Of a stretch of DNA of 64,000 nucleotides, positions 3,613-52,968 are shown one piece after another. Below the pieces are notes generated by a model. The model was not told where the DNA came from, did no database searches, and saw only the letters and a list, made by a program, of their open reading frames with translations. The position numbers and the translations under genes are program-made. Source of the DNA: an uncultured Alphaproteobacteria bacterium (GTDB lineage: Bacteria; Pseudomonadota; Alphaproteobacteria; Micavibrionales; CSBR16-224); contig CATLPD010000001.1 of NCBI GenBank assembly GCA_950054485.1, positions 124,001 to 188,000 of the forward strand, read 5' to 3'. Each line of letters begins with the position of its first letter. Positions within the stretch are counted from its first letter, which is position 1.

Positions 3613-3640
3613 AAGCCCGAAGATCAAGGTTTAGGCTTTA
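3613..3640 (-). terminator. Weak terminator-like hairpin after the family A operon
   Basis: On the minus strand a 6-bp stem (AAAGCC / GGCTTT) with a loop of about 16 bases is followed by a run of T. It begins at the stop codon of the last family A gene. The stem is short, so termination is likely partial at best. Confidence 0.3.
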
Positions 3641-4348: not shown

Positions 4349-4363
4349 GTCAGTCTCCTCGGT

Positions 4364-5083: not shown

Positions 5084-5096
5084 CTAATTTCTCTTA

Positions 5097-5810
5097 TTAA
5101 TTCTTCGGGGGCTCTAATTTTCGTCGATCCGGCCTAGGGGTGGGGCCCATTCCTTGCCCAAAATTAGCAAGCAAAAGGACCAACGTTAACGAAAAAACAA
5201 AGCCAATAAACGTTTTAAATTCAGGTTCATCGTCATAGGCCATTTCACCATCAGCCATACATCTCTCGACTGCTCTATCGCCGCTTAAATTGAAATCGCC
5301 ATCCGAAAATTTCACCCGGCATTCTTTTAACATGTATGGATTGACATCATCTTGCGCAACGCCTAAATCAAGCGCATCCAAAGTTGCCTCGTAGGATATA
5401 AACTGCTGCTCGGTCATACGGGGATCAACAAACATATATTCCCTGATATTCAAATACTGATCAAAACTGTGTCGATTTATTGCCCAGCTGTATTTTATTT
5501 GATCTCTTCCTGACATATCTCCTTCTGTATAGGCGCGAACGGTATCAAGCCGCCTTTGATCTGCCGAAATATAATCTGCAACAAAATTATCCAGATTCTC
5601 TGTCATGGTTTGGTCAGCCTGTTCCATATCCGGCTGAAAATCATCAACTGTATTGCTTTCCAGCGCCGATCCGCCCATCAGTAATAATGGCGATATTGAC
5701 GTCAGCCAGAACCTTTTGGACGCCGGATTAAAAAAGCGCTTGGCCTGGTATTTTGCCATTTCTTTGTTATAGCCTTTTTTGGGAAGTTCTTTACCCACAA
5801 AAATCTCCAT
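5097..5810 (-). CDS. Family A membrane protein, copy 3 (first gene of operon)
   Basis: This 237-residue founder of the tandem triplet has the block KYQAKRFFNPASKRFW, a membrane segment at about 34-50, the shared TVDDF and MTE motifs, VDPRMTEQQF, and conserved Cys 164 and 184 (LKECR, VERCM). A second membrane segment at about 200-217 precedes the tail PTPRPDRRKLEPPKN. Divergence among the three copies is highest in the middle domain and lowest at the N-terminal block and around the Cys pair. A good promoter lies just upstream. I know no characterised relative; a structural or envelope role is only inference from topology. Confidence 0.85.
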   Translation of the reverse strand: MEIFVGKELPKKGYNKEMAKYQAKRFFNPASKRFWLTSISPLLLMGGSALESNTVDDFQPDMEQADQTMTENLDNFVADYISADQRRLDTVRAYTEGDMSGRDQIKYSWAINRHSFDQYLNIREYMFVDPRMTEQQFISYEATLDALDLGVAQDDVNPYMLKECRVKFSDGDFNLSGDRAVERCMADGEMAYDDEPEFKTFIGFVFSLTLVLLLANFGQGMGPTPRPDRRKLEPPKN

Positions 5811-21496: not shown

Positions 21497-22096
21497 TTAA
21501 AGACCAAATCCACCCGGTTTCGGACTATTCTTTTTCTGTCCGGTTGATAGATCAATAATATTTTCGGCGTTCTTTTCTCGATCCTTTGTCGGGTACGCGG
21601 TCATGATAAGCAGAGCCTCGCCTGTTGGCTGGTCATTTTTATCCGCAACTTTCAAATAAGCTGAAAGATCCTTGCCAAAATCCAGTAGCTTTTCTTTTTT
21701 GGCTTCCAACTTGCGGCGTTTTTTCTTATCGCTTGGCGAAAGGTATTTAAGCTTGTCAGATGTTTCAATCAGCTTTGCTTCTAAATCTCTGTAAAAGTCA
21801 TGCGCCCATTGCGCACCATAAAGACGCTGACCGGCCTTTGTTCTTTTAATCAGTTCTTTTTGCGCCGCCATATCTTCAGCAAAAGAACCCAGCGTTATAA
21901 TACCACCTGCACCGCCCGCCATAACTAGGGCGAAGGTTAAACCACCATCAACGAAAGCCATAGGCGCTGCCAAAGCTGCCGTTAGGCCAGTGGTCAGCTT
22001 GCCGGCCTTAACAGAATTGTTAAATTTTTTGGACAGGAATTTGCGCGCTTTGCGCTCTTGTTTTTCTGCTTCTGTTCTTTTCTTTTTTCCGAACAT
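21497..22096 (-). CDS. Family B membrane protein, copy 1 (unknown function)
   Basis: I do not recognise this family. The 199-residue product has a very basic start (MFGKKKRTEAEKQERKARKF), two adjacent hydrophobic segments (about 35-50 and 52-75) joined at the motif FVDGG, and a charged helical region with RKLEAKKEKLLDFGKDLSAYLKV. A Pro/Gly-rich tail ends the protein. The N-terminus is nearly identical to copy 3 (22680). The hydrophobic hairpin suggests membrane anchoring with most of the protein in the cytoplasm. It is the last of three tandem genes, 9 bases after copy 2. Confidence 0.83.
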   Translation of the reverse strand: MFGKKKRTEAEKQERKARKFLSKKFNNSVKAGKLTTGLTAALAAPMAFVDGGLTFALVMAGGAGGIITLGSFAEDMAAQKELIKRTKAGQRLYGAQWAHDFYRDLEAKLIETSDKLKYLSPSDKKKRRKLEAKKEKLLDFGKDLSAYLKVADKNDQPTGEALLIMTAYPTKDREKNAENIIDLSTGQKKNSPKPGGFGL

Positions 22097-22105
22097 GTCT
22101 ACTCC

Positions 22106-22678
22106 TTATAGGCCGAATGATTTTGGCGATACATCATCGCCTGGTTTTGCAGGATTAATGCGTGCGTTATAATCTTCTTTCTCGTCACCCGTTAATGGAC
22201 GCTTCAGATACAAAACGGGTGCTCCCGTCGGTTCGCCATCTTTGTCCACCACAATTAAAAACTCTGCAAGGTCACGTGCTGTATCCAGCAGCTTCTCTTT
22301 CTTTTCTTCAAGTTTTTTATATCTTTTCGGCTTTTCTTCATACATATTCATCGCTGCATATGTCAGCAGCAATTGTTCCTGCAGTTTTTCATGCATTTCA
22401 ATTGCCCAGCCCTGTCCATGTAAACGTTGATTTGCATCAGATGTACTGACGCGGGCCTTCATGTTTTTACTGTCATTGGCATATCCGATACCGCCATATA
22501 ATAATGTTGTGCCGCCTATCATTGTAAGAGCCAATGTTATGCCCCCATCAACAAAAACCATCGGCAACACCATCGCAGAACTTAATCCGGCACCAAAACC
22601 GCCAAAAGAAGCTGCGCTGTTAAATTTCTTCATCAGAAATTTTCTTTTTTTCTTATCGCTTTTATCTTTTTTAGCCAT
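22106..22678 (-). CDS. Family B membrane protein, copy 2 (unknown function)
   Basis: The product is about 190 residues from the ATG at 22678, which has GGGGA 6 bases before it and lies one base after the stop of copy 3; the longer open frame upstream runs inside copy 3 and is rejected. It has a Lys-rich start (MAKKDKSDKKKRKFLMKKF), the hydrophobic pair around FVDGGITLAL, the helix YKKLEEKKEKLLDTARDLAEFLIVVD and the motif PTGAPVLYL. It shares the layout of its neighbours but has diverged in the tail (DDVSPKSFGL). Function unknown. Confidence 0.83.
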   Translation of the reverse strand: MAKKDKSDKKKRKFLMKKFNSAASFGGFGAGLSSAMVLPMVFVDGGITLALTMIGGTTLLYGGIGYANDSKNMKARVSTSDANQRLHGQGWAIEMHEKLQEQLLLTYAAMNMYEEKPKRYKKLEEKKEKLLDTARDLAEFLIVVDKDGEPTGAPVLYLKRPLTGDEKEDYNARINPAKPGDDVSPKSFGL

Positions 22679-22679
22679 T

Positions 22680-23273
22680 TTATTTCCCCTGCCCTGGTGG
22701 TTTCGGCGCGTCCTGTTTCTTGGCATCGCGACCCGGATAAACATAAAATTCACGGTCAGCATCGGCATCAGCTGTTACTGTTTTGGTAATATAGGCGACA
22801 GGCTCTTTTGTCGGACGGTTTTTATCGTCAATGACGGTCAAATATTCTTCAAGCCCTGCTGCAATTTCAAGCAGCTTTTCTTTACGCTCTTCAAGTTTGC
22901 GGTATTTCTTACCCGATGCATCGGTAAAATTCATTTTTAAACAGGTTTTAATCAGATCCGCCTGCAGGTCTTCTTGTAATAATTTTGCCCAGCCCTTGGT
23001 GAAAACGCGCTGGTCACAATCTGTTGTATAAAGAACGTCCTCCTGATTTTTGGCATCTATAAATACAGCAAATGGCGTTGCCGTACCCATCATAGCAGAT
23101 GTAATCATCAATGATGCGCCGCCATCGACGAAAGCCAGCGGAACGGCCAATGCCGCAGCACCACCGCCGATAATAGGCAAGCCTTTTGTTGTGCCTTTAA
23201 ATTTATTGGTAAGGAACTTTTTCTTTTTCTGCTCAGCTTTTTCAGCTTCGGTTTTTTTACGTTTTCCGAACAT
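22680..23273 (-). CDS. Family B membrane protein, copy 3 (first gene of operon)
   Basis: This 197-residue protein starts MFGKRKKTEAEKAEQKKKKF, then has hydrophobic segments at about 33-48 and 52-72 around FVDGG, the helix YRKLEERKEKLLEIAAGLEEYLTVID and PTKEPVAYITK. The LTVxD...PxxEPVxY segment is shared with the distant copy at 52376. It contains two Cys not kept in the other copies. It is the first gene behind a clear promoter, with GGGGA before the ATG. The next gene upstream on this strand is nusB, 83 bases away. Confidence 0.83.
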   Translation of the reverse strand: MFGKRKKTEAEKAEQKKKKFLTNKFKGTTKGLPIIGGGAAALAVPLAFVDGGASLMITSAMMGTATPFAVFIDAKNQEDVLYTTDCDQRVFTKGWAKLLQEDLQADLIKTCLKMNFTDASGKKYRKLEERKEKLLEIAAGLEEYLTVIDDKNRPTKEPVAYITKTVTADADADREFYVYPGRDAKKQDAPKPPGQGK

Positions 23274-37825: not shown

Positions 37826-40201
37826 ATGAGTCCAGAAGATACAAATAATCAGGTTACACAAACATCCCTTATGAATGCCCTGCCGGTCGGCATCGGCGTA
37901 TTATCCAAAGGGGCCGACGGCTTTGAATTCCAGAACGCGAATGTGCGTTTGCGCAATATGTTGGGTATAACCGAACAGGTCAGCCTGAACCAGTTACTGG
38001 GCGAAAAAGCCGGTAAAATGGTGAACGATCTGTCCAAAACTGTCGGCGGTGAAACCGTTATTGAACATAACGGCAATTGGTTTGCATTCAATATTACATC
38101 ATTTCAGGGCGGCGAATGGCTGGCTGTTGTCAGCGATGTTACCAACATTAAGTCCAAAGTGCAGGCCGCCGAAAACCTGACCGAAATGAAAGGCCGCTTC
38201 CTCGCGATGATGAGCCACGAAATCAGAACCCCGATGCAAAGCATCTTTGGATTGCTGGAGCTGATTTCCGACGAAGACAACCTGACCGAAGACGCTGTAT
38301 CCATGCTGGGCACAGCCAAAACCAGCGCGACAGGTCTTTTGGCTATTCTGGATGATATTCTGGATATCGCCAAGGTTGATGCGGGTAAGATGGATCTTGA
38401 TATTCTGGAGGTTCCGGTCCGTACCCTCGCCTATGGTGTGATTGAATGTATGGAGGTCAAAAAACAGGGCCATAAAGTCAAACTGGTCACAGAAATTAAC
38501 AAGGACGTTCCCGCGGTTATCACGGGCGACCCGACCCGATTACGCCAGATCCTGCTGAATCTGGTCGGAAATGCCATGAAATTCACCGATAAGGGCGAAA
38601 TCCGTCTTAAAATCACATCCGACACACATCATTTGAATATCAAAGGGTCCGAGCTTGGCCTTCGCTTCGAAGTGATTGATACCGGCATCGGCATGCCCAA
38701 AAATGTTGCCGATAAACTGTTTCAGGATTTTACACAGGCTGACAGCTCGACCACACGCAAATACGGCGGTACAGGATTGGGCCTATCGATTTGTAAAAAG
38801 CTGGTTGATTTAATGGGCGGCGAAATCGGTGTGATCAGTGTGCCGGGGGACGGGTCAAACTTCTGGTTTGAAATTCCGACCGAACCCGTAACCGGTGAAA
38901 AACCGCAACAATTACCTGATCTGAACGGCATTGCCGTTTTATCAGTTGAAGACCACCCGCAGGGCGCCAAAGAGATCGAGCGCACATTGAAATCCATGGG
39001 CGCAGATGTGACAAGCGTACCAAGTTATGCCGAAGGGCTCAGCATGATCCACAACCGCCGTTACGATGTGGCGCTGATCGATCAGGGCCTGCCCGATGGC
39101 CTGGGGATTGACCTGTTAAAAGAAATATCAAAGGCCCAGCCCTATACCGGCATGATCATGTATACCGTTCGCGATGATTACGGTTTGCAGCACACAACGC
39201 GGACGCTTGGCGCAAAATATCTGTCAAAACCCGCATCCCGCATCGGCCTGGGCGAAGCAGTGCGTGACGCGGCGCGGCAAAACAATGCGCCGGCATCCGA
39301 CAATAAGCGTCCACGAAAACTGCTGATTGCCGAGGATACGGCCGCCGTTCAGGATGTTTTAAAACGTCAGCTCAGCAAATTGGGGGTCGAGGCTGACTTT
39401 GTTGATAACGGCCTGCAAGCGCTGGAAAAACTTAAGACCGAAGAATACGGCATTTTATTCACCGATCTGCATATGCCCGAAATTGACGGATACGAAGTTG
39501 TAAAGCGCCTGCGCGCAATGGAAGAACAGCAGGGCATTAAAAACAAGGCCGATGGCTTTCCGATTGTTGTTCTGACGGCCGATGTACAGATGGCCCAAAA
39601 ACAGGCCTATTTGTCCTATGGCTTTAACGAATGTCTGTTAAAACCTGTCAGCTTAGGCCAGTTCAAACAGCTTTTAGTGCGTTGGAATATCCTGACCGAG
39701 GGCGATAAACCCACAGTCAAACCGCGCGCGACCGAAGCCGAGGCCAAGGAAGGGGTTGAAGACAATGATGCCTCCAGAGAAACCGTATATATTACGGATT
39801 CCCCGGCAGAAATCGATCTGGCCGACCCGGCCACAGCACATGTCAACCAGATCCGCGATAATGGCGAAGACACGCCGCCCGCCATTGACCCGAAAGCAAT
39901 TGAGGAAGTCATGGGTGGCCTGGATGCCAATACGATCGAAATGCTGAATAAATTTGTTCAGATGACGGAACCGCAAATCGACGCCTTGGAAGACGCCTAT
40001 AAAGCCAAGGACCATAAAAAAATTATCAATGTTGCCCATAGCCTTAAAGGCGCGGCGCGATCCGCATGTTGTTTACGCTTGGGGGATTTGGCTGACCAAA
40101 TTCAACTGTCTGCCGAAGAAGGCGAGGCCCCGCCCGAACATCTTTTGGATGAATTGATCATGGAATTTTCACGCGTTGCCCGTGAAGTTGCGCAATTGTA
40201 A
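37826..40201 (+). CDS. Hybrid histidine kinase: PAS-like, HisKA, HATPase, two REC, HPt
   Basis: The 791-residue cytoplasmic kinase has, in order: a PAS-like domain (about 10-110), HisKA with MMSHEIRTPMQSI (phospho-His near 132), HATPase_c (about 220-360, with GTGLGLSICKKLV), a first receiver (about 375-485, VALIDQGLPDG), a second receiver (about 495-620, FTDLHMPEIDGYE with Asp near 547) and a C-terminal HPt domain (about 690-791, AHSLKGAARSACC). There are no membrane segments, so the signal is probably internal or passed by a partner. The HPt implies phosphotransfer to a separate regulator. The layout resembles BarA/ArcB without their membrane part. It is convergent with the last pilin gene, one base away; that placement suggests but does not prove a link to the pilus. 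Confidence 0.95.
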   Translation: MSPEDTNNQVTQTSLMNALPVGIGVLSKGADGFEFQNANVRLRNMLGITEQVSLNQLLGEKAGKMVNDLSKTVGGETVIEHNGNWFAFNITSFQGGEWLAVVSDVTNIKSKVQAAENLTEMKGRFLAMMSHEIRTPMQSIFGLLELISDEDNLTEDAVSMLGTAKTSATGLLAILDDILDIAKVDAGKMDLDILEVPVRTLAYGVIECMEVKKQGHKVKLVTEINKDVPAVITGDPTRLRQILLNLVGNAMKFTDKGEIRLKITSDTHHLNIKGSELGLRFEVIDTGIGMPKNVADKLFQDFTQADSSTTRKYGGTGLGLSICKKLVDLMGGEIGVISVPGDGSNFWFEIPTEPVTGEKPQQLPDLNGIAVLSVEDHPQGAKEIERTLKSMGADVTSVPSYAEGLSMIHNRRYDVALIDQGLPDGLGIDLLKEISKAQPYTGMIMYTVRDDYGLQHTTRTLGAKYLSKPASRIGLGEAVRDAARQNNAPASDNKRPRKLLIAEDTAAVQDVLKRQLSKLGVEADFVDNGLQALEKLKTEEYGILFTDLHMPEIDGYEVVKRLRAMEEQQGIKNKADGFPIVVLTADVQMAQKQAYLSYGFNECLLKPVSLGQFKQLLVRWNILTEGDKPTVKPRATEAEAKEGVEDNDASRETVYITDSPAEIDLADPATAHVNQIRDNGEDTPPAIDPKAIEEVMGGLDANTIEMLNKFVQMTEPQIDALEDAYKAKDHKKIINVAHSLKGAARSACCLRLGDLADQIQLSAEEGEAPPEHLLDELIMEFSRVAREVAQL

Positions 40202-40202
40202 T

Positions 40203-40808
40203 TTACGGGCAATCGTCCCGTATAAAAAATATCTTTATGCAATTTGTGCCACAACTTCCATGGTCTAATTCTGCCTCACAATTCCCAAAGCGCTTGACCA
40301 AGTTTTCTAATGCCAATTGCGTTGCCATGCTGTCGTCACCATAAGTTCGAATATAAACATTATTGTTAACAGAATGGTTGGTATATACCCAATCAGTAAA
40401 GCCAGCTGGCGGATTTGGCAGGAATCTGCCTCTAGCCGCGCCATAGACAAGCTCCTCACCACTCGGCGCACCCGGACATTTTAAATATTGCAACGTGCTA
40501 TCGGCCGCCGCGCCGCCCGGGTTATTAGCATCCGTGGGGCTCAATGGATATGGCGAATTATTATTATCGTCAGTATCAATATCGCCATCACTGTCCAGAT
40601 CACCACCGCCATCCGGGTATGACACGCTGCATTCCATGACCGCACTGCGAATAGATTCTGCCTGCGTATAAAGTGCTTCGGATATTTGCGCCGCACGCGC
40701 GCTGGTCTTGTCTTCGCTGCTCGTATTAACAAGCGATAAAGTCAAAGCCGCCAAAAGACCGATGGCGATGAATATATAAAGGATGACGCTGCCATTCTGA
40801 TTACGCAT
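40203..40808 (-). CDS. Pilin-like protein 3 with calcium-loop motif
   Basis: This 201-residue protein has a very short leader (MRNQNG) followed by a hydrophobic helix (SVILYIFIAIGLLAALTLSLV). It looks like a prepilin cut after the Gly, but residue 5 of the mature form is not Glu. After the helix comes the Asp loop DLDSDGDIDTDDN, which fits the dockerin/EF-hand calcium pattern D-x-D-x-D-G-x-I-x-x-x-D. Four or more Cys could make disulfides. It is a tandem paralogue of the gene at 40812 (shared PYPLxPxDxNNP, CPGAP, GFxxWxY, NNVxIxTY). The start has GAAGGG upstream. It is the last gene of the pilus operon. Confidence 0.8.
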   Translation of the reverse strand: MRNQNGSVILYIFIAIGLLAALTLSLVNTSSEDKTSARAAQISEALYTQAESIRSAVMECSVSYPDGGGDLDSDGDIDTDDNNNSPYPLSPTDANNPGGAAADSTLQYLKCPGAPSGEELVYGAARGRFLPNPPAGFTDWVYTNHSVNNNVYIRTYGDDSMATQLALENLVKRFGNCEAELDHGSCGTNCIKIFFIRDDCP

Positions 40809-40811
40809 GAT

Positions 40812-41510
40812 CTAGCACCCTTCCCGTTTCAGGTAAATTTTAAAATACATCGTTGATCCGGATGTATCCTCATCCGTCTCGCAGTCCGTAAAACGGTTTT
40901 TCAAACGCTCTTTCGCCGAGACCAAAATAGGATCATTGGTCGAAAAATAGGTATAAATAAAGACATTATTATTGCCGGCTTCACTCACATTACTGTAAAA
41001 CCACTCACTGAAACCGTTCGGCGGTGGGAAAAAACGTGTATCCGGATCAAACGATCCGGAATTATCAAATAGATAATAATGTCCCGCAGGTGCCCCGGGG
41101 CACTGCACGTGGATAACGCGGCTGTCAGGCCCTGCGCCATCCGGATTATTGCCATCATTCGGATACAAGGGGTATGGCGGGCTCAGGTTATCATTGCTGT
41201 CAATATCGCCGTCAGCGTCAAGATCAACGGCATTCGGATAGGTATTAACACAGCCCATGATTGTTGCACGAATGGTATTCGCCTGAACGTATAGTTTTTC
41301 AGTAATTTGTTGCGCGCTTTGTGTAGAGGCACTGTCGCGCGTGCTGTCGACCAGTGAAACGGTCAGCAGGCCAAGCAAGCCCATCGCCAGAAACACATAA
41401 AACAGAACACTGCCGCGTTCGTTATTGTCACAGCGTAAAAACGGGAAAAGCGGCCACCGTTTCCGGTGCGCCGCTTTGGCATTCATTCGTAAATGCTTTT
41501 GTCCCTTCAA
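40812..41510 (-). CDS. Pilin-like protein 2 with calcium-loop motif
   Basis: The frame opens with a TTG at 41510, or an ATG at 41486, giving a basic leader of about 27-35 residues before NERGSVLFYVFLAMGLLGLLTVSLV. Cleavage after the Gly would leave a mature N-terminus without Glu5. The Asp loop DLDADGDIDSND again fits the D-x-D-x-D-G-x-I-x-x-x-D pattern. The C-terminus ends YLKREGC with a likely disulfide to an earlier Cys. It is a paralogue of pilin-like protein 3, 3 bases upstream of it. It could be a minor pilin or tip protein; which of the three forms the shaft is not clear, though the gene at 41523 is the better candidate. Confidence 0.8.
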   Translation of the reverse strand: MKGQKHLRMNAKAAHRKRWPLFPFLRCDNNERGSVLFYVFLAMGLLGLLTVSLVDSTRDSASTQSAQQITEKLYVQANTIRATIMGCVNTYPNAVDLDADGDIDSNDNLSPPYPLYPNDGNNPDGAGPDSRVIHVQCPGAPAGHYYLFDNSGSFDPDTRFFPPPNGFSEWFYSNVSEAGNNNVFIYTYFSTNDPILVSAKERLKNRFTDCETDEDTSGSTMYFKIYLKREGC

Positions 41511-41522
41511 ATCAACCCCAAC

Positions 41523-42194
41523 TTAGTTTTCAACCAAGGCGTGGAAATAGATTCTGTTTGTTGTTGTCGCTGTGCCTGAATAGACACAACCAAAAGCTTC
41601 GCCCGGCAAAGCGTCAATTACACCTGCCGCCGATGTAGAGCCATCGTATGTGGCAGCAGCGGTTGTATCGTCATAAGCTGCGCCATTTACTACGGGGTCG
41701 GTTGCTAATCCCAAACCACGATTGATTTCCTGACATACATTACTGTTCAAATCATCCGATGCATCAGTTACAACAAAAATATCCGGGCTGGTGTCACCAC
41801 CAATATCATCCAGAAACTGTCCAGTTGTAGAAGTAGCTGGCACAATGTATGCATAAGCTGTTGCACCCGCGCCTGACGGCGGATCTTGTTCAATGGCACC
41901 ACCACCTGCAGAGTTAAACACTTCGTTATCAGCGTCTGAGTCATCGTTATCGAATTCAAACTCTAACAGGCTTGTACCTGTAATAGACATACGTGTCACT
42001 GTTGTACGCAAGCCGGCTGCATATTGTGTAATTTGAGAGGCTGTAATCAAAGCCTGCTCTTTATCAACACCACCACCGCCACGGCCTGATTGTGTAATTG
42101 CGTAGGACAAGGCTGCGAATAAGGCAACCGCAATCAGAATCAGGAACAACGCGTTACCTTTCTCCGACTTTCTAAATTTCTTAATGTTTAACAT
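41523..42194 (-). CDS. Pilin-like protein 1, probable major pilin
   Basis: The start at 42194 (MLNIKKFRKSEKG) is chosen because AAAGGA lies 9 bases before it; ATGs at 42200 and 42212 are also in frame. A 13-residue basic leader ending in Gly precedes the helix NALFLILIAVALFAALSYAI. The mature residue 5 is Leu or Phe rather than Glu. The 223-residue product is rich in Gly, Ala, Thr and Asp, and has one Cys pair (VCQEIN, GCVYSG) near the C-terminus. It has Asp-rich DNDDSDADNE but not the full calcium loop of its neighbours. A 15-bp palindrome lies in its leader region. Confidence 0.8.
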   Translation of the reverse strand: MLNIKKFRKSEKGNALFLILIAVALFAALSYAITQSGRGGGGVDKEQALITASQITQYAAGLRTTVTRMSITGTSLLEFEFDNDDSDADNEVFNSAGGGAIEQDPPSGAGATAYAYIVPATSTTGQFLDDIGGDTSPDIFVVTDASDDLNSNVCQEINRGLGLATDPVVNGAAYDDTTAAATYDGSTSAAGVIDALPGEAFGCVYSGTATTTNRIYFHALVEN

Positions 42195-42220
42195 GCTCAT
42201 ACTTCCTTTCATTAAACCCT

Positions 42221-42823: not shown

Positions 42824-42904
42824 AGTTAACCCCTTAGTGTTCTTCTATTATTCTAAACATGAAATGTGGCGAAAATGTGGCAGAAAGATGTTTTTTTTGT
42901 TATT

Positions 42905-43968: not shown

Positions 43969-45186
43969 TTATCCCCCCGAGGTCAAAGACCCCATCATAC
44001 TATCCATACTCATGTTCATTACGGTCAAGGCGTAAATCGCACTACCGAAAGCCACAACCAGATACAATCCGGAAATGCCAAAGGCCAGCCAGACAATTAA
44101 ACTGTGTTTTGATTTTGATGCCTGCTGACGCATTTCAGAAATTGATTCCATAACGGTACCGACCTGTGACAGGTCGGCAATACCGGCCAGTTCCAGACGC
44201 TCACTTTTGGTCAATGGTGGGCGGTCCAGCGCGGCACCCAGAATAACGCCGCGTTTCAGATCTTCGTTCGCATCATCCCAATATTGACTTACTTCCGGAA
44301 TCGTTGTTGCCTCAGACGCCTGGCTTAGCACATCTGAAATCGGAACCTTACCGCGGATCATACGGGCTGCCGCCGCCGTTGAATCCGCAAAACCCAAATC
44401 GCGCAGATACCCATTGATCAGGGGTATTTTGCGTGTCATGCGTGCGGCCAAAAAGTTCTTTTTTCCGCGATTGTGCCAATATGATAACAGCATCCATGCA
44501 AAGAAAACGGCAATCCCGACAGCGGTCCAGATCAGAACATCCCACAGCAGTTCAAGGTTTCCGACAACCTCGTTATATTGTTCCAGTTCTTCGGCTTCCT
44601 GTGGTGGGTTTTCACGGAACCAGGCGATAATTTTACCGCGTCCCCAGAACATACCCTGCACAATCGTAAAAATATCAAAACCCAACCAGGCCATCGTACC
44701 CATAATTGCGCGGCGGTTTTTACGCTTGTTGGTAATATTTTGAATGGCGTGCGGGATACCTTCATGCAGGCGGTTACTTTTTTCACTGGCCGATAAAATC
44801 GCAATGGTACCGTGGTCAAAAATATTCAAGGCTTTCAAGGCATCAATAACCCCAAGGCCACGCGACAAAGCCTCACGCGCAGGTGATAAAATATTCTGAC
44901 GGCGCGGGTTGGTTTCGGCCTGTATCAAACGCCACAGGGCAACCCCCGGCGATGTCGCAGTCGATCGGAACTGGATACCGCGTAATAACTGAACCTGCCA
45001 CCAACTGGATCGGGCCAGCCAGCGCTCGAACGCGTTACGTTCATGCGGGCGGATTGACAAAACATATCCACCACGCTTCACAATCAACTGGCGAACGTCC
45101 TGTTCGGACGGCATGTAGAACGCTTCGGAGCTCACTTTTGGCCCCCGCGGCGTATCAACAGCAAATTCAACCAGCCATTGTTGCAT
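43969..45186 (-). CDS. Type II secretion F / PilC-family inner-membrane protein
   Basis: This 405-residue platform protein of the pilus machine has the duplicated F-domain layout: a first helical domain ending IMGTMAWLGFDIFTIVQGMFW, a membrane helix (LLWDVLIWTAVGIAVFFAWML), a second F domain and a C-terminal helix (LIVWLAFGISGLYLVVAFGSAIYAL). The segment SREALSRGLGVIDALKALNIF fits the first domain. It interacts with the ATPase and pilins in related systems. The start has AAAGG 8 bases upstream. It follows the ATPase gene by 52 bases. Confidence 0.85.
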   Translation of the reverse strand: MQQWLVEFAVDTPRGPKVSSEAFYMPSEQDVRQLIVKRGGYVLSIRPHERNAFERWLARSSWWQVQLLRGIQFRSTATSPGVALWRLIQAETNPRRQNILSPAREALSRGLGVIDALKALNIFDHGTIAILSASEKSNRLHEGIPHAIQNITNKRKNRRAIMGTMAWLGFDIFTIVQGMFWGRGKIIAWFRENPPQEAEELEQYNEVVGNLELLWDVLIWTAVGIAVFFAWMLLSYWHNRGKKNFLAARMTRKIPLINGYLRDLGFADSTAAAARMIRGKVPISDVLSQASEATTIPEVSQYWDDANEDLKRGVILGAALDRPPLTKSERLELAGIADLSQVGTVMESISEMRQQASKSKHSLIVWLAFGISGLYLVVAFGSAIYALTVMNMSMDSMMGSLTSGG

Positions 45187-45238: not shown

Positions 45239-47083
45239 TTATTCGTCAATCTGCGCCAGCGCTTTGTTCGGGTCAATCAACCCTTCCTTCACCAGCGATT
45301 TCAAATTATCAAGACGTCTGTAATAGGTAACGCCGTCTTCCAAAGCGACATTGTTCACGTTTTCCATCAAGGCGTGGAAAATCGGATCACGTTTCGCGAG
45401 CGGCGTATCAATCAGCAGTGCCTCCAGCAGCAGCGTACGGCCAAGAATACCTGTACGGTTACACAAATCACAGCCGTTCGGGTTTTGCAGATGGACAACC
45501 GTGTGGGCATCCAGCTCAAGGCGTTCTATTTTATCTGGACTTAAAACCTCGTGCGCAGGGTATTTCTGTGCACAACTGTGACACAATGTGCGAACAAGGC
45601 GCTGGTTCAAAATCGCGCGAATTTGCTGAGACAGCGTATAAGTTGAAGATCGCGCACGCTCTGACGGCATAAAGGATCGCAATCGCTCCAGCGTCTGTAC
45701 AGCCGTATCGGCGTGAATGGTTGAAATCACGGTGTGGCCTGATTCCGCCGCTTTCAGGGCGGTTTCGACAGTGGCGCCATCGCGCATCTCACCGATGATG
45801 ATATAGTCGGGATCATGACGCATCGCGGATCGAATAAAGTCAGAAAACTCCAGCCCTTCGCGCCCCGATGACACCTGCCACTGCGTTGCATAGCGCATTT
45901 CATATTCAATCGGGTCTTCAATCGTCAATACGTGACGTCTGCGGCGATCAATTTCAAGAACACAAGCATACAGGGTTGTCGATTTACCGGAACCGGTTGG
46001 ACCTGACATCAAAATCAGACCCCCACCACCCTTAATCTCAGGTGAAAGCAGCTTGGCCAAATGGTCACCCACATGGGGGTGTTTTTTAAACAACTGATCG
46101 AAAGATTTCAGACTGGCCCTATCCAAAAGACGTAAGGTCAGCTTTTCACCATCCTGCGCATGCGGGCCCGCCGCAACACGAACATCAATATTACGACCCT
46201 GCCAGCCAAAACCGAAACGGCCATCCTGCGGGCGGCTTCTGTCACCAAAGTTCAACCCTGAATCGCGTTTAATCAAGGTGGTCAAACGCGCCATCGCATC
46301 AGACGGCAGCAAGTGCATTGGTACCAAATCCCCGTCAATGCGGTAATGAATCCAGTTCGGTGCATCCTGCGCAAAGTTCTGAATGATGTGAATATCCGAT
46401 GCACGCAACTGCAGGGCTTCGGCCAGCATATCGCGCTGGAACTGGTTGAGCAAAAGACCGTTATCAATATCCAGCAACCACGAAGACAATGTTTTTTCTG
46501 TACGGTCAGCCGACAGATCATGAACCGATTGTAAGGTCGATGTCAGTTCGGCCCTGTCCCACAGCTCGATCTCCACATTATCAACATGGAAACTGCTTCG
46601 GTTCGCGGTTGATTTCAAATTTGCAAGCTGACGTTCTGATAATTCATTCAAAGGGGCAATTTTTAAAACGCCGTCTTCCAGTGACACCAGATGAATATTC
46701 AGCGGCAGCCAGGACTGCACCGGCAACATAGCGCGCAACTGGTCACCGGTCGCGTTTGTGCGAACACCTTCTTCACTGGCCTCCTGATCACTACCGGCAC
46801 CTGTCATACTAAGGAGTTGTTCGGCCGATTTTGAAATACCCTGCTGCATTAATAGCGATCGTTCTTTCAAGACCATATCAAGATAGCGTTCACGCACAAT
46901 TGACAAACGGTTGGTGCGGCGATCACCTTTGCGGCGGTCATCAAGCCCTTCGGGCGGGCCGGCATCCTCTTGACGGCGGTCCCCACCTGTCGTCCGCAGT
47001 TCAGGCGGCACTGTACCGCCTGTCTGTTTTGTCAGGCGGTCAATGTGGATATCCAACGGTGAATTTTCGTTCTGCTCGTCCAT
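45239..47083 (-). CDS. GspE/PilB-family pilus assembly ATPase
   Basis: The 614-residue cytoplasmic ATPase powers pilus extension. An N-terminal tail has DRR triplets (GGDRRQ, DDRRKGDRR). The MshE-like N-terminal domain is followed by the ATPase domain: Walker A GPTGSGKSTTLYA near residue 357, the Asp box TIEDPIEYEM, Walker B YIIIGEMRD, and the His box ESGHTVISTIHA. The four-Cys metal site of the family is present (LCHSC and CDLC). No retraction ATPase (PilT type) is seen in the window. The gene is 11 bases downstream of the Ig-like/PilP-like gene. Confidence 0.93.
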   Translation of the reverse strand: MDEQNENSPLDIHIDRLTKQTGGTVPPELRTTGGDRRQEDAGPPEGLDDRRKGDRRTNRLSIVRERYLDMVLKERSLLMQQGISKSAEQLLSMTGAGSDQEASEEGVRTNATGDQLRAMLPVQSWLPLNIHLVSLEDGVLKIAPLNELSERQLANLKSTANRSSFHVDNVEIELWDRAELTSTLQSVHDLSADRTEKTLSSWLLDIDNGLLLNQFQRDMLAEALQLRASDIHIIQNFAQDAPNWIHYRIDGDLVPMHLLPSDAMARLTTLIKRDSGLNFGDRSRPQDGRFGFGWQGRNIDVRVAAGPHAQDGEKLTLRLLDRASLKSFDQLFKKHPHVGDHLAKLLSPEIKGGGGLILMSGPTGSGKSTTLYACVLEIDRRRRHVLTIEDPIEYEMRYATQWQVSSGREGLEFSDFIRSAMRHDPDYIIIGEMRDGATVETALKAAESGHTVISTIHADTAVQTLERLRSFMPSERARSSTYTLSQQIRAILNQRLVRTLCHSCAQKYPAHEVLSPDKIERLELDAHTVVHLQNPNGCDLCNRTGILGRTLLLEALLIDTPLAKRDPIFHALMENVNNVALEDGVTYYRRLDNLKSLVKEGLIDPNKALAQIDE

Positions 47084-47094
47084 ATACCTAACTA

Positions 47095-48630
47095 TTAATT
47101 GTCATCATCTGATGAAGATGACGCGTTATTATTACTATTATTGTTGTTTGATGATGACGAAGAATCATTCGTAGTATTGTTTATACGTGTCGGGGTCAAT
47201 GATCTGTCAAAAACCAACAATATCGAATTATTTCCGTTCATCAAATCAACGCCAGTCGACTTGATGTCAACTTGCCATGGGACACCGGCAATAACCGTTT
47301 CCTGGCCGTCTTTAACAACAATTGTTCCAATCGGACCTGAAATCACAGCGGTTCTGGGGGATAAAGAGGTGACAATATATCCATCCAGATTGATCGGAAC
47401 ATCATCCTGTATTTCGCCGTCCATCGTTCTGACCGATATTGAATCACGTGAAACGGCAGCATCTGCCTCGCCGCGAACCGGAATAACAAGAATACCGCGC
47501 GCGCCGGTGTGACGGATCTGTACATCATCCAGTAACGGCCCCGTGCGACTGGGTGCCCATGTGATTGTCAAAGGGCACGCCGCGTTCGGCGCCAATACGC
47601 GCCCGCGATCGCAACCGTTTCTGCCGACGCTTAAGCCGTTGTCACTGCTGGACAAACGAATATCCTGAATGATCAGATCCTGATCACCGACATTCACCAA
47701 GCTGGCCGTAATCGCGGAAACGCTTTCAATACCACTTTCAAAATCAAATTCACTTTTATCTGTAATCAAAAGACCCGAATTCGGGACCGTATCGGGATAG
47801 ATCGGTGCGTCAGCGGGTGTATCAGGCGCATAGTCACCGGAAACATCAACGCGGCTGATCCCCGTAACACCATCATGCTTAATGACAAGACTGCCCAAAG
47901 ACGGACCACGAATAGTCGGCGACCATGTCACTGTTGCAATACAGGCCGCGCCGGCTTTCAGGTTTTCACAATTTGTTTTATAGCTGTAGCCCGACTTAGG
48001 TGCCGCCTCCAGATATATTTCGTCAATTTTGATTTCCTGCGGGGTCTTGTTACGAAAGGTAATCGAACGGATTTGCTCGATACCCGAGCTTACCGATCCG
48101 AAATCCAAAGCCTCCGGAAAAGCTTCCAGTTCGGATTGCGCCGTTTGTTCCTGATTTTCCAAACCCTCAACGGTTCCCGAAACAGATGCTGTCGCCAAAC
48201 GCGTGCGTCCGTTATGATCAATCAGCATTTCGATGCGATAGCTACCGACCTGAAGGCCCGATGCCGCAATCGTAATCGCACAGTCAGCACCAGGTGGTAA
48301 CGGTTCGCGCGCACATTGATTCAAAGAAACATTCGCCGAAACAGTCGAAGATGGATAAAGATTGATTTCGCCAACCTCGACAGGTGAAACACCGTCATTA
48401 CGGAACAGCACGACGATATATGATGTTGAACCGACAGTCAGCTCGCCGCCTTCGATACTTTCTTCAACCGCTGTTAGGTTTGGTCCTGCCGTTGCTGACC
48501 CGCCGCCGCCAGAGCCATCAAAGGACCGGAACTGCGCCTGTGCATTACCGGAAAATGATGTAAGAACCAACGCCATAGACATCATGAACGCCGAAAACAA
48601 AACCGGTAATCTGTTTTTTATAACCTGCAT
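47095..48630 (-). CDS. Exported pilus protein: Ig-like repeats plus PilP/GspC-like domain
   Basis: A signal peptide (cleavage near AQAQ) leads a 511-residue periplasmic protein. Three tandem beta domains of the ASH/choice-of-anchor type (about 45-155, 165-270, 285-390) each have the repeated pattern LDFGSVSSG...ITFRN...C...W(S/A)P. The next part, about 400-475, reads PINLDGYIVTSLSPRTAVIS, then IGTIVVKDG and GVDLMNGNNSILLVF, which fits the PilP/GspC homology domain that links inner-membrane parts to the secretin. The last 35 residues are Ser/Asn/Asp low complexity. It lies between secretin and ATPase genes. The fusion is an inference from pattern, not a search. Confidence 0.75.
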   Translation of the reverse strand: MQVIKNRLPVLFSAFMMSMALVLTSFSGNAQAQFRSFDGSGGGGSATAGPNLTAVEESIEGGELTVGSTSYIVVLFRNDGVSPVEVGEINLYPSSTVSANVSLNQCAREPLPPGADCAITIAASGLQVGSYRIEMLIDHNGRTRLATASVSGTVEGLENQEQTAQSELEAFPEALDFGSVSSGIEQIRSITFRNKTPQEIKIDEIYLEAAPKSGYSYKTNCENLKAGAACIATVTWSPTIRGPSLGSLVIKHDGVTGISRVDVSGDYAPDTPADAPIYPDTVPNSGLLITDKSEFDFESGIESVSAITASLVNVGDQDLIIQDIRLSSSDNGLSVGRNGCDRGRVLAPNAACPLTITWAPSRTGPLLDDVQIRHTGARGILVIPVRGEADAAVSRDSISVRTMDGEIQDDVPINLDGYIVTSLSPRTAVISGPIGTIVVKDGQETVIAGVPWQVDIKSTGVDLMNGNNSILLVFDRSLTPTRINNTTNDSSSSSNNNNSNNNASSSSDDDN

Positions 48631-48653: not shown

Positions 48654-50186
48654 TTAAGGCTGACCCTCAATTGTTAATATAGGCTGTGGCTCTGAAATTG
48701 CTACTGGCGCCAATGCGTCAGCAGGAATTGCGCCCATTGACAGCCCTTCCATATCCTCGTCCATATCATTATCGGCACGGTTTTTCTGTTCTTTCATTGC
48801 GCGAACTTCCGGTGTTTCATACACCAGAACGCGTGGACGGAACAGGAAGACCAGCTCGGATGTTTCGGTTGACGCCAGACGTGATGTCGGGAACAGCGGC
48901 TTCATAAAGCCCGGACCGCTTTCTGTGTTATTATCATTTTCCGTGACCAAACCGCCGATCAAAATCGCATCCCCCGGACGCACACGCACCTGCGTTTGCA
49001 AGCCGCGTTCAGTCGTATTCGGCAACTGAACGGTCGTCCCGTCACCGCCGACAAAGTTTTGCAATGCTAAGAGTTCGTTCAAAGTAATATCAATCGTGCC
49101 GTAAACGGTTGATTCATCCCATCCACTGCCGATAGTCAGGTTCAAACCTGTATCGATTGTATCTGTCTGAATCGAGAATGTTTCATCGCCGACATCGTCA
49201 ACCGTACGCGTCACTTCACTGACATAGTTTGATGAATTCTGGACGGATAGCGTGGCTTCAGACCCTGAAAGAACCGTCAACTGTGGTTGCGATACAGTTT
49301 TGACCGCGCCATATTCGGAGATAAATTCAAACACAGTCGTCGCATTGAAATCGCCACCGCTGAATGTCGGCGTAATCGTAATTGGCGCAGCTGAACCTGC
49401 AGGCGCAGCCCCCGGGACGTTAAAGTTGATATCAAAATTACCCAGATTCTCTAGAAGACCCGACCAATTAATACCGGTGCGGTTTTCGTTATTCAAGGTT
49501 ACTTCCCAGATATGGGTTTCAAAAACGATCAAGGCCGTATTCTTGCGCAGACGCGCAAAATAATCGTCGGCATATCGCGCCGATCTGTTTGATGCCTGAT
49601 AGACAATAACATTTGTTGATTCATCGATGATCGGCTCCGCGCTGTCTTCTCCCAAAACAGTGCTGAGGCCTTCAACAATACCGTCCAAACCGGTTTCACC
49701 ACTTAAAGGCGGCAAATCAACAACAAAAGTTTCTGTTTCTTTCACCGTTAAAAGACCATCGCTGTATGAACAATAAAGATTGGCCAGACCGCAGACGCGG
49801 TCGACCACTTTTGGTAAACGGCCACTAAGGTTTGCAACGGTAATCCGCTCGTTCAAACCGGCATCGGTTTCAAACGCCATCGAAATATCGAAATCCGACA
49901 GGATCAATTGCAACGCTCCGGCCAGCGTTTCCGAACGCAATTCATACGGCCCCACGTAAACATCGGGCAACGGGTCGCTTTTGGCGGCCTTTGGTACCAA
50001 AACATCATTTTCAAGTGGAATATAGGTAATCGGCTGATAGCTTTCGTTCAGCGCTTTCATCTTTTCACGCGCCTTAACTGGTGATCCGATATCAACGCTG
50101 TGATCGCCCGGCCTGTCAACAGGAGCACAGGCTGTCAGAACAAATGCAGCCGCCGCACATAAAATATATTTTTTTATTATCCCCAT
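48654..50186 (-). CDS. Lipoprotein secretin (PilN/BfpB type)
   Basis: The signal ends in LTAC, so this 510-residue protein is a lipoprotein, as in the type IVb PilN/BfpB secretins. The N-terminal part has a STN/N0-like domain (ILSDFDISMAFETDAGLNERI). The N1-like domain is FVVDLPPLSG... with a VYQASNRSARYADDYF segment. The C-terminal secretin domain has the signature LQTQVRVRPGDAILIGGLV and ends with LVFLFRPRVLVYE. It forms the outer-membrane pore. It is the second gene of the cluster, 10 bases after the response regulator. Confidence 0.92.
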   Translation of the reverse strand: MGIIKKYILCAAAAFVLTACAPVDRPGDHSVDIGSPVKAREKMKALNESYQPITYIPLENDVLVPKAAKSDPLPDVYVGPYELRSETLAGALQLILSDFDISMAFETDAGLNERITVANLSGRLPKVVDRVCGLANLYCSYSDGLLTVKETETFVVDLPPLSGETGLDGIVEGLSTVLGEDSAEPIIDESTNVIVYQASNRSARYADDYFARLRKNTALIVFETHIWEVTLNNENRTGINWSGLLENLGNFDINFNVPGAAPAGSAAPITITPTFSGGDFNATTVFEFISEYGAVKTVSQPQLTVLSGSEATLSVQNSSNYVSEVTRTVDDVGDETFSIQTDTIDTGLNLTIGSGWDESTVYGTIDITLNELLALQNFVGGDGTTVQLPNTTERGLQTQVRVRPGDAILIGGLVTENDNNTESGPGFMKPLFPTSRLASTETSELVFLFRPRVLVYETPEVRAMKEQKNRADNDMDEDMEGLSMGAIPADALAPVAISEPQPILTIEGQP

Positions 50187-50196
50187 TATAACCCCT

Positions 50197-50643
50197 TTAC
50201 GATGCAGCCTGTCCTAACAGCCGCTGCACGGTTGCGATCAGCCTGTCTTTTTGCACCGGCTTCAGCATAACAATATTAATGCTATAGTGACTTGCCTGTT
50301 CTAGCAAATCATTATTTTGATCACCGGTCAGCAGAATAATAGGCACCCTGTGGTTTTGACCGTGTATGTTTTTGACAAATTCAAAGCCGCCCATGGGCTC
50401 CATCCGAACATCCAGAATAATCAAGCCGATTGAACTGTCCAGCTTTTTCAGCGCCTCGGTTCCGTCGGCAGCCTCCTCGAGCGTATAACCAACACCCTTC
50501 AGGAAACCCGCGATTTGCATGCGAACGAATTCGTTATCTTCGACAATCAATATTTTTTTGCTATTTGAATCCGGCATCTGGTGTGAATACTTTATAGAAT
50601 AAATTGGGCGGGAGGCGTCCAGATCGAAAAAACCCTTAGCCAT
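50197..50643 (-). CDS. Single-domain response regulator at the head of the pilus operon
   Basis: This receiver-only protein has the acidic pair in ILIVEDNEF, the phospho-acceptor in LIILDVRM, the Thr in ILLTGDQN and the Lys in VMLKPVQKD. After the Asp the usual MPxMDG reads MEPMGGFE, so the conserved Pro and Asp are altered. The frame opens at 50643, but the promoter found just upstream would start transcription almost at that ATG; translation from MPDSNSKK at 50577 is equally likely and matches the family's normal N-terminus. It probably controls or tunes the pilus, perhaps with the hybrid kinase at 37826; that pairing is inference. Confidence 0.88.
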   Translation of the reverse strand: MAKGFFDLDASRPIYSIKYSHQMPDSNSKKILIVEDNEFVRMQIAGFLKGVGYTLEEAADGTEALKKLDSSIGLIILDVRMEPMGGFEFVKNIHGQNHRVPIILLTGDQNNDLLEQASHYSINIVMLKPVQKDRLIATVQRLLGQAAS

Positions 50644-50709: not shown

Positions 50710-51216
50710 ATGTTTTTTAGCACGATGGCCTTTTTTATACTGATCTTTGCCCTGCTGGCCAAACTGGCCTGGACAGATCACAAGTTTTATTTATTACCAA
50801 ACGTCTATAATCTGTCTTTGCTGATCTGCTATCTCGGCTTTCACATGATGACCAAATGGCATTTTGTCGCCATCGACAAGGCTATATGGGGCGCCATTGC
50901 CGGCGGCGGGTTTCTGATTATCCTGCGGGCCGTTGCCAACCATGTCATGAAAACAGACACAATCGGTTTCGGCGATATCAAATTTGTGATTGCCGCAGGT
51001 TTTGGCCTTGGTATTCCCAATGTCTTTCTGGTTTTAACAATCGGATCGGCCCTTGGAATTTTCCACGGCATCATTTTATATATGATTGAAGACCGCAAAA
51101 CCGAAGAAAACCTTGACCTCAGTCACGTTAATGTTCCGGCAGGTGTCGGCCTTTGTATCGCAACCGCTTTGATTACACTCTATCAATTTAATGGTTGGTG
51201 GAGGCTCTTCTCATGA
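50710..51216 (+). CDS. Prepilin peptidase (A24 family, CpaA/TadV-like)
   Basis: This 168-residue integral membrane aspartic protease cuts prepilin leaders. The two catalytic Asp are in WTDHKFYLLPN (near residue 22) and GFGDIKF (near residue 95), the GxGDxK motif of the family. It has about six membrane segments and lacks the N-terminal methylase domain of PilD. That agrees with pilins that do not have a Glu5 cue and may not be methylated. It is divergent from the pilus operon and overlaps the CoA transferase gene by 4 bases. Confidence 0.88.
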   Translation: MFFSTMAFFILIFALLAKLAWTDHKFYLLPNVYNLSLLICYLGFHMMTKWHFVAIDKAIWGAIAGGGFLIILRAVANHVMKTDTIGFGDIKFVIAAGFGLGIPNVFLVLTIGSALGIFHGIILYMIEDRKTEENLDLSHVNVPAGVGLCIATALITLYQFNGWWRLFS

Positions 51217-52379
51217 CAGGATCGGCCCTTGACGGCATAAAGGTTATTGACCTAACCCGCGTTCTGGCCGGGCCATCAGCCACCCAAATCCTTGGCGATT
51301 TCGGCGCAGATGTCATCAAAGTCGAAAAGCCCGGCACAGGCGATGACACGCGCGCATGGGGCCCGCCATTTGTCAGTGATGGCAGCAGCGAAAGCGCCTA
51401 TTACCTGTCAGTCAACCGATCAAAACGATCAATCGCCCTTGATATCACAACCGCTGAGGGGCAAGAAACCTTGCACCGCCTGATTGAAAAAGCCGATATT
51501 CTGGTCGAAAATTTCAAGGTCGGTGGACTTGAAAAATATGGGCTGTCCTATGAACAGATCAAAAATAAATATCCGCGCCTGATTTATGCCTCGCTGACAG
51601 GCTTTGGCCAAACGGGCCCTGCCAAAGATGCGCCCGGATACGACTTTATGATCCAAGGCATCGGCGGCATTATGAGCACCACAGGCCCCGCAGATGGCGA
51701 ACCGTACAAGGTCGGTGTCGCGATATCGGACTTGATGGCGGGACAATATCTGTTGAATGGTATTTTGGCAGCCCTTTACAACCGTGAAAAATCGGGCGTG
51801 GGACAGCAGATTGACGTCTCGCTGTTTGAAACGCAATTGGCCTGGCTTGCGAATTTGGGGCAATATTATTTGACCAGCGGTGAAGACCCGCCCCGCGTCG
51901 GCAATGCCCATACGACGATTGTGCCTTATGAAGCGTTCGAGACATCAGACGGACATTTCATTCTGGCGGTTGGCAATGACACCCAGTTTAAAAGCTTTTG
52001 CATGATTTCAGGCCTACGCGATCTGGCAGAAAACTCCGCGTATAAAACGAACCCCGCCCGTGTTAAGAACCGCGAAAAACTGCTGCCGATCATCCGGGAC
52101 GCTGTGAAAAAGAAAACACGCGCCCAATGGCTGGACCTCTGCGAAAAAAATAATATTCCCGCGGGGCCGATCAATAAAATCAGCGAGGCCTTTTCCCTGC
52201 CCCAGGTCGCCGCCCGTGATATGGTGATTGAAATGAGCCATCCCGACAGCGATACGCCTGTGAAACTGACAGGTAACCCCGTCAAATTTTCAGGCACGCC
52301 TGTGTCCTATAAAAAAGCCCCGCCCAAATGCGGCGCGGATACGGATGACATTCTAAAAGATTGGCTGGGTCAGGATTAA
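51213..52379 (+). CDS. CaiB/BaiF-family CoA transferase
   Basis: This class III CoA transferase is 388 residues from the ATG at 51213, which has GGAGG 8 bases upstream and overlaps the peptidase stop (ATGA). The N-terminal part has GIKVIDLTRVLAGPSATQILGDFGADVIKVE and SVNRSKRSIALD. The catalytic Asp region is APGYDFMIQGIGGIMS. The C-terminal part has VGNAHTTIVPYEAF and IPAGPINKISEAF. Substrate acids in this family vary (oxalate, carnitine, bile acids, branched acids), so none is assigned. It is translationally coupled to the prepilin peptidase, an odd pairing that may be chance. Confidence 0.92.
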   Translation: MTGSALDGIKVIDLTRVLAGPSATQILGDFGADVIKVEKPGTGDDTRAWGPPFVSDGSSESAYYLSVNRSKRSIALDITTAEGQETLHRLIEKADILVENFKVGGLEKYGLSYEQIKNKYPRLIYASLTGFGQTGPAKDAPGYDFMIQGIGGIMSTTGPADGEPYKVGVAISDLMAGQYLLNGILAALYNREKSGVGQQIDVSLFETQLAWLANLGQYYLTSGEDPPRVGNAHTTIVPYEAFETSDGHFILAVGNDTQFKSFCMISGLRDLAENSAYKTNPARVKNREKLLPIIRDAVKKKTRAQWLDLCEKNNIPAGPINKISEAFSLPQVAARDMVIEMSHPDSDTPVKLTGNPVKFSGTPVSYKKAPPKCGADTDDILKDWLGQD

Positions 52380-52936
52380 AGCTTAAAGGCCTCAATTTTT
52401 TGTTTTGGCAATTGCGCCGGACGGCCTTTTGAATCGATCGCATATTTCAACGGATTTTCATCACTGTCTTTCGGCAGCTCACGTGTCATGTAGTAAACGG
52501 GTTCGTCGATTTTATTACCGTCTTTATCGACTACAGTAAGCTTGGGTTCCAGCGCCTGCGCGAACCCCAATAACTCGTGAATTTTTCCAGAGGCTCCTTC
52601 AACGGTTAGCTTTTCATTTTCGTAGGTTTTTAAAAGTTCTTTCTGAATATTTGCATACACATGGTGACTGGGTACATCTGCAAGAATACTTTGATATGCA
52701 TTTGTTTTGCGTATGTCCTTATCTGGGAAAAACGTCAGCACCCCTACAGCGCCATACATTAAAGCAATAATAGGAACTGTTATTAAACCGCCGTCAAGCG
52801 CCAAAGCCCAAAGGGGCATCGACGCAACACCACCATAGGTAAATCTTGGACCTAAATATTTTGTTTTCGCTTTAAATTTCTTTTTCAAAATACCTTTTGA
52901 TGGAATTTTATCAGGGTTAATTTCAATATCGCGCAT
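52376..52936 (-). CDS. Family B membrane protein, distant copy 4
   Basis: This 186-residue protein is about 29 kb from the tandem copies but clearly related. It has a basic start (SKGILKKKFKAKTKY), the hydrophobic pair around ALDGG (VDGG in the others), and the segment LTVVDKDGNKIDEPVYYMTREL that matches LTVIDDKNRPTKEPVAYITK of copy 3. I use the ATG at 52936, which has CGGAG 8 bases upstream, over a TTG at 52942. It has its own promoter. It overlaps the CoA transferase tail to tail by 4 bases. Function unknown. Confidence 0.8.
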   Translation of the reverse strand: MRDIEINPDKIPSKGILKKKFKAKTKYLGPRFTYGGVASMPLWALALDGGLITVPIIALMYGAVGVLTFFPDKDIRKTNAYQSILADVPSHHVYANIQKELLKTYENEKLTVEGASGKIHELLGFAQALEPKLTVVDKDGNKIDEPVYYMTRELPKDSDENPLKYAIDSKGRPAQLPKQKIEAFKL

Positions 52937-52968
52937 GAGCAATACTCCGTTTTAAATCATGAAAAACA

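Follow-up and report, generated by a model that had tools for sequence, protein, structure and literature searches.

The three pilin-like open reading frames (ORFs), here called A, B and C, are the last genes of a minus-strand operon that, within the window (the whole 64-kb stretch of DNA that we analysed), belongs to a complete type IV filament system (Table 1). A response regulator heads the operon and is followed, in order, by a secretin, an Ig-like protein, an assembly ATPase, a platform protein, two conserved proteins (P2 and P1), and then C, B and A; a prepilin peptidase is encoded divergently. We take this A24 peptidase, with its 168 residues, to be too short for a methylase domain. Note that the start codon of B is uncertain (a TTG start is used here, with a later ATG at 41486) and that C has an alternative start, an ATG at 42194, which was the end coordinate in the original prediction.

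Table 1. Genes and sequence elements of the filament locus, with positions in the window.
Feature	Position	Strand	Remarks
Pilin-like protein A	40203..40808	-	201 aa; class III leader, Tyr5, calcium-type loop
Loop DLDSDGDIDTDD of A	40566..40601	-	placed in the alpha-beta loop, after helix 1
Pilin-like protein B	40812..41510	-	46% identity with A; Tyr5, calcium-type loop; from TTG
Loop DLDADGDIDSND of B	41190..41225	-	calcium-type
Pilin-like protein C	41523..42212	-	GNALFLILIAVALFAALSYA helix, Leu5; operon member of dispersed paralogue family
P1	42281..42823	-	conserved operon protein; no family matches
Promoter-like motif GCCACATTTTCGCCACATTT, TAGAAT downstream	42862..42881	-	architecture as upstream of dispersed pilin genes
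P2	42905..43966	-	conserved operon protein; no family matches
GspF/PilC-like platform protein	43969..45186	-	PF00482
GspE/PilB-like assembly ATPase	45239..47083	-	PF00437
Ig-like repeat protein (ASH/HYDIN, choice-of-anchor D)	47095..48630	-	conserved in operon
Secretin, MshL/PilN-like	48654..50186	-	PF00263
Response regulator	50197..50643	-	operon head
Prepilin peptidase A24	50710..51216	+	168 aa, GFGD motif; divergent from operon

Convergent to the pilin block lies a hybrid histidine kinase gene (37826-40201), conserved at many loci and followed by asd. This kinase and the response regulator (50197-50643) may be controllers of the filament system. Elsewhere in the window, groups of short proteins (at 3638-5810, 21497-23273 and 52376-52942) begin alike, with Lys-rich sequence, and have a membrane segment, which gives them the look of tandem paralogues; the three that we tested had no Pfam matches.

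All three ORFs begin as prepilins do, as had been predicted: a charged leader ending in Gly is followed by a hydrophobic stretch (A, MRNQNG/SVILYIF; B, ...NNERG/SVLFYVF; C, ...KSEKG/NALFLIL, with a slash at the putative cleavage site). Their homologues start likewise, with a class III leader site assignable in 158 of 159 C-, A- or B-type proteins from 80 loci and one ORF lacking a site. Glu5 is missing from all three, also as predicted, position 5 of the mature chain being Tyr in A, Tyr in B and Leu in C. The residues originally listed for this position (Leu, Phe, Tyr or Ile) are correct for the family, but A, B and C themselves have only Tyr and Leu. Across the 158 assignable homologues, position 5 is Tyr (67) or Leu (1) in A/B-type proteins and Leu (89) or Gly (1) in C-type proteins. 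None has a credible Glu5 under a site rule that leaves positions 1 to 5 free, the sole formal match falling inside the leader. Residue 1 is Asn in C-type and mostly Ser in A/B-type proteins. For dispersed paralogues in the source genome, sites were assigned with a rule that bars charged residues just after position 1, and the C-type ORFs without an assignable site are short or broken pieces. Furthermore, a Glu5 prepilin pattern that recovers the known Glu5 pilins of the genome gave two formal matches among the 6,320 ORFs of the 80 loci. One of these, at locus L148, lies in a stretch unlike a pilin leader; the other is a real N_methyl-type Glu5 pilin at L076, where its gene immediately follows a C-type gene and no motor genes are present.

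The predicted folds of A and C have a long N-terminal helix and a beta-sheet head, and of the solved chains with which they were compared, type IV pilins are the nearest in fold. Sequence searches of Pfam, NCBIfam and the PDB with A, B and C gave chance-level matches only, and Pfam searches with 56 and 62 homologues found no pilin family above chance level. The model of A (pLDDT 91.5; mature chain of 195 residues) has a helix at residues 2-57, an alpha-beta loop that contains the calcium-type loop, and then a strand-strand-helix-strand-strand head with one 13-residue helix. In the model of C (pLDDT 86.6), the N-terminal helix is broken at Gly-rich residues 26-29. Foldseek alone returned nothing significant for A (kinases) or C (PilA1 of C. 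difficile, E 1.4). When A was realigned to the 998 top Foldseek chains, the first ten entries were all type IV pilins or pseudopilins, among them PilA1, PilW, PulG, GspG of EHEC, two Thermus pilins and TcpB, with kinases ranking after them from Z 3.5 downward. Their Z scores run from 8.7 to 4.0, and as values below 8 are weak taken alone, we give weight to the consistency of the top rows. Similarly, all six entries listed for C, realigned to 100 chains, are type IV pilins (best Z 7.2).

The machine is conserved through most of the Micavibrio order. C-type proteins occur in 103 of its 119 genomes (87 of the 98 good ones), with 16 genomes having no match. Genes C and A are adjacent at 67 of 80 related loci, and upstream conservation was scored where 8 kb or more of upstream sequence was available, at 51 of the 67. 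The ATPase, platform protein, P2 and P1 are found together at 44 of the 51, the secretin at 44 and the peptidase at 37, while the P1-C-A block is detached from the motor genes at seven. Outside the order, related proteins were found in 6 of 289 genomes sampled from the class. Position 5 is Pro, Thr or Leu in the C-like relatives at the loci we read, and Ala in pilin-like proteins that neighbour them; the site rule tolerates Glu5, and the scan also takes in unrelated membrane proteins and one row (L248) that starts within the leader. The distant relatives in three genomes of other families (G137, G152 and G255; loci L249-L254, L256 and L258) have Pro5 (G/IAIGPILF...), and Pro is unusual at that point of a pilin helix. 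One C-type gene (L111) lies on a metagenome-assembled contig labelled Acidobacteriaceae, which is possibly mis-binned.

The other two filament systems of the source genome have pilins that keep Glu5 (GFTLVELAI-type in one, Flp GATAIEYGL in the other). Platform proteins occur at three loci, one of them a Tad-like pair, and there are three A24 peptidases, one near each; contig C6 carries the T2SSF pair together with Flp. The filament operon itself has a single platform gene, as opposed to the paired single-domain platforms and Glu5 Flp that characterize Tad (T4cP) systems. Among 38 genomes examined, Glu5-type families are encoded elsewhere in the genome in most (N_methyl in 37, Flp in 35), and the N_methyl exception (G028, 85% complete) has Flp matches; we found no genome among the 38 that has this system without any Glu5 pilin. 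A genome of the same family as the source genome, G003, has no C-type match and no Flp but 30 N_methyl matches. In the stretches of it that we read (L260-L267), Glu5 pilin genes (GFTLVELAIVMTIIG) are scattered among unrelated genes, some alone, some as pairs and, once, seven in a row. Dispersed repertoires have thus arisen from pilins with Glu5 as well as from pilins without it, which speaks for a role of subunit variety and counts against Glu5 loss as their cause.

The main surprise beyond the original prediction is that the source genome carries 36 further intact C-type genes scattered outside the operon, many of them behind a common promoter-like motif. Searching C against its own 2.28-Mb genome gave 43 matches, comprising 37 intact C-type proteins (operon C included) and several broken copies. 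The dispersed genes are mostly single or paired and lie between unrelated genes. Among the 37 proteins, residues 1-22 have a mean identity of 0.74 and the remainder one of 0.20, and the first 19 residues are identical in 23 of them. The third codon positions of the N-terminal helix are nevertheless no more alike than chance (identity 0.404 in 24 copies, against 0.405 expected for independent codon choice), so we infer that these are old genes whose helix is held by selection on the protein. For the same reason, we rejected recent amplification or gene conversion of the helix. Silent donor cassettes are also unlikely in the case of C-type genes that have their own upstream motif. In a quick tree, whose deep forks are weakly supported, most dispersed genes of the source genome (G000) and of G017 fall apart from the operon genes, mostly in genome-specific groups. 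Most relatives have between 0 and 10 C-type matches, with none in 6 of 38 genomes and 26 in G017; among the matches listed, G389 has at least 22 and G386 at least 15.

The promoter-like motif consists of GCC-N8-GCC and a TATAAT-like box at equal spacing, ending a few bases before the ATG, which suggests leaderless transcripts. It was found in 13 of 33 upstream regions; the matrix used had been built from the very sequences that it scored, and simple shuffles served as the comparison. With 0-1 mismatch, all 16 matches in the source genome lie directly upstream of C-family genes or remnants; as the pattern was derived from the same genes, the weight rests on the lack of matches elsewhere. Allowing two mismatches adds four matches, one before the P1-C-B-A block (42862-42881), one before a spore-coat-U-like gene and two inside other genes. 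A reversed control pattern had four matches. The variant before the operon pilin block ties the dispersed genes to the operon in this genome. A search of five relatives, among them G017 with its 26 C-type matches, found no copy of the motif at 0-1 mismatch, so co-regulation is suggested for the source genome only. The spore-coat-U-like gene (L204; motif at G000:C11:3486-3505) adjoins chaperone- and usher-like genes, as named from our reading of their sequences, and C-type pilins and another type of pilus may have a regulator in common.

Glu5 is almost invariable in bacterial pilins, although often absent in archaea, and Glu5 mutants form no homopolymers but co-assemble with wild type (passages of PMC4471445). 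The A, B and C subunits could therefore depend on a Glu5 partner. They might even be minor or tip subunits only, similar to GspK or PilX, on a shaft built from a Glu5 major pilin encoded elsewhere, although we consider this rather unlikely. In the passages cited, a Glu5-less subunit caps tip complexes (PMC10191384) and it is usual for a system to have one minor pilin without Glu5 (PMC5207764), whereas here all three operon pilins and the dispersed C-type family lack it. Candidate shaft pilins exist in 37 of 38 genomes; however, the other two systems own their platform proteins and peptidases, just as this locus has its own motor, secretin and peptidase. Gene A does come last in the pilin block, a 3′ position that it shares with GspK-type genes (PMC5207764), and the Glu5 pilin of L076 directly follows a C-type gene, yet within the available flanks of the 44 machine loci no recognisable Glu5 pilin lies beside the motor genes. 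The original claim that assembly must use another cue is plausible and strengthened by order-wide conservation, but a Glu5 subunit encoded elsewhere in the genome may take part. It is very improbable that the three do not polymerise and are either ordinary exports of the Sec pathway, with cleavage by signal peptidase I, or membrane-anchored proteins left uncut. At its conserved ALSYA end, the C-type helix looks like an AxA site, with Gly-rich sequence after it, but a clear AxA is missing from A and B. Signal-peptide cores drift, in contrast to the 19 residues identical in 23 of the 37 C-type proteins despite saturated synonymous change, and to the Gly-Asn junction, invariant in 16 aligned proteins. 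An A24 peptidase in the operon and a pilin fold predicted with the helix included also argue against this reading.

A and B each carry one Dx[DN]xDG loop and C has no loop of this type. The original prediction related these loops to dockerins and EF-hands, and they do share the 12-residue DxDxDG...D/E ligand pattern with dockerin/EF-hand and Dx[DN]xDG loops in general. The loop is not a dockerin, however: it is single instead of paired, lies inside a pilin alpha-beta loop, and has Asn at residue 13 in both proteins (hydrophobic in EF-hands), followed by a Pro-containing stretch instead of a helix; none is predicted in residues 58-98 of A. Ten of 74 A/B-type proteins have the strict 12-residue loop, where shuffled sequences would give 0.19. 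In nine of these ten the shorter core is matched too, always at mature residues 63-64; the tenth has Ser at loop position 5 and does not match the core pattern. Both loops probably bind Ca2+. They are unlikely to be decayed or purely acidic linkers without metal: although 64 of the 74 proteins have no strict loop and no helix follows it, loop positions 1, 3, 5, 6, 8 and 12 hold their residue class while intervening positions vary, and the loop keeps one location in divergent A/B-type proteins. A DxDxDG core likewise stands at one place (index 71) in 8 of the 37 C-type proteins, against 1.06 expected by shuffling, and the motif binds Ca2+ in many non-EF-hand contexts, according to passages of a paper whose main text does not contain the word 'pilin' (PMC3123361). 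The idea that calcium switches the fibre between states, also part of the original prediction, is quite improbable. It could draw on the GspK homologue XcpX, which binds calcium with a Kd of 26 uM by ITC (in PMC6211770, passage cited), and on the importance of calcium for PilY1 (PMC4471445, likewise), but the loop is optional within one conserved system and we found neither a partner nor a regulatory site. Because most orthologues that retain the same operon do not have the loop, assembly cannot depend on it across the family; it is probably an optional stabiliser and not the basis of assembly.

We therefore think it probable that the Micavibrio order has a dedicated Glu5-less filament machine whose type IV pilins include A, B and C, with an optional Ca2+ loop and interchangeable C-type subunits. 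The short A24 peptidase encoded next to the operon would remove the class III leaders by cleavage after Gly, a GspE/GspF-type motor would extrude the subunits, and the filament would leave through the MshL/PilN-like secretin. As hydrophobic or aromatic residues (Tyr in A/B-type and Leu in C-type proteins) appear to take the place of Glu5 in the whole system, docking would probably depend on residue 1 and on the N-terminal helix, which is nearly invariant, not on a salt bridge from Glu5 to the N-terminus. The Dx[DN]xDG loop could serve as an optional Ca2+-binding staple in the alpha-beta loop. The C-type family would have multiplied into its 36 intact genes outside the operon, with the promoter-like motif at 16 family loci (genes and remnants), and the dispersed proteins may be interchangeable subunits or tips of the same filament.

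According to passages of PMC5207764 and PMC6211770, the minor pseudopilins GspK/XcpX of type II secretion similarly have a pilin fold, no Glu5, calcium sites and a place at the 3′ end of the pilin genes. There is, however, one GspK per system, beside Glu5 pilins and with a bulky helical insert, while here all operon pilins lack Glu5, chains have about 200 residues and no helical insert is predicted; GspK was not among the matches listed in the fold realignment of A. The Kil (Tad) pilus of Myxococcus, as described in passages of PMC12075869, also belongs to a predator and combines one machine with paralogous pilin-like subunits encoded at several loci, including interchangeable minor-pilin tips in four tip complexes. 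It differs in its Tad-type machine, separate major pilin and 15 pilins in all, organised as tip clusters, compared with the 36 mostly solitary C-type genes plus operon A, B and C, MshL/PilN-like secretin and GspE/GspF motor found here. Archaeal type IV pilins often lack Glu5 as well (PMC4471445, passage cited), but this system is bacterial, includes a secretin and has Gly invariably preceding the cleavage site. The passages concerned of the Micavibrio ARL-13 genome paper mention pili, prepilin-type signals and pilin expression, and do not describe the filament system of A, B and C (PMC3189940). Our search of the open-access literature found no system whose own pilins all lack Glu5.

Most likely, then, this is a type IV filament system of Glu5-less subunits, with an exchangeable set that has expanded in this genome, to which the calcium loop is secondary and optional. 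A machine whose own pilins are all Glu5-less, kept through most of an order, is a natural test system for the function of Glu5. Glu5 is otherwise described as needed for homopolymerisation (in PMC4471445, passage cited). More tentatively, our findings open up a bolder reading: a bacterial type IV filament with Glu5 in no subunit and a docking code in the N-terminal helix, whose exposed heads come from a scattered and co-regulated set of nearly 40 C-type pilins, some of them calcium-stapled, for the recognition of prey or hosts by predatory or epibiotic bacteria. If so, its role would be comparable to that of interchangeable pilus tips, with a repertoire several times larger. The dispersed C-type repertoire, found in relatives of an epibiotic predator, is a candidate for the recognition of prey or surfaces via exchangeable pilus subunits.
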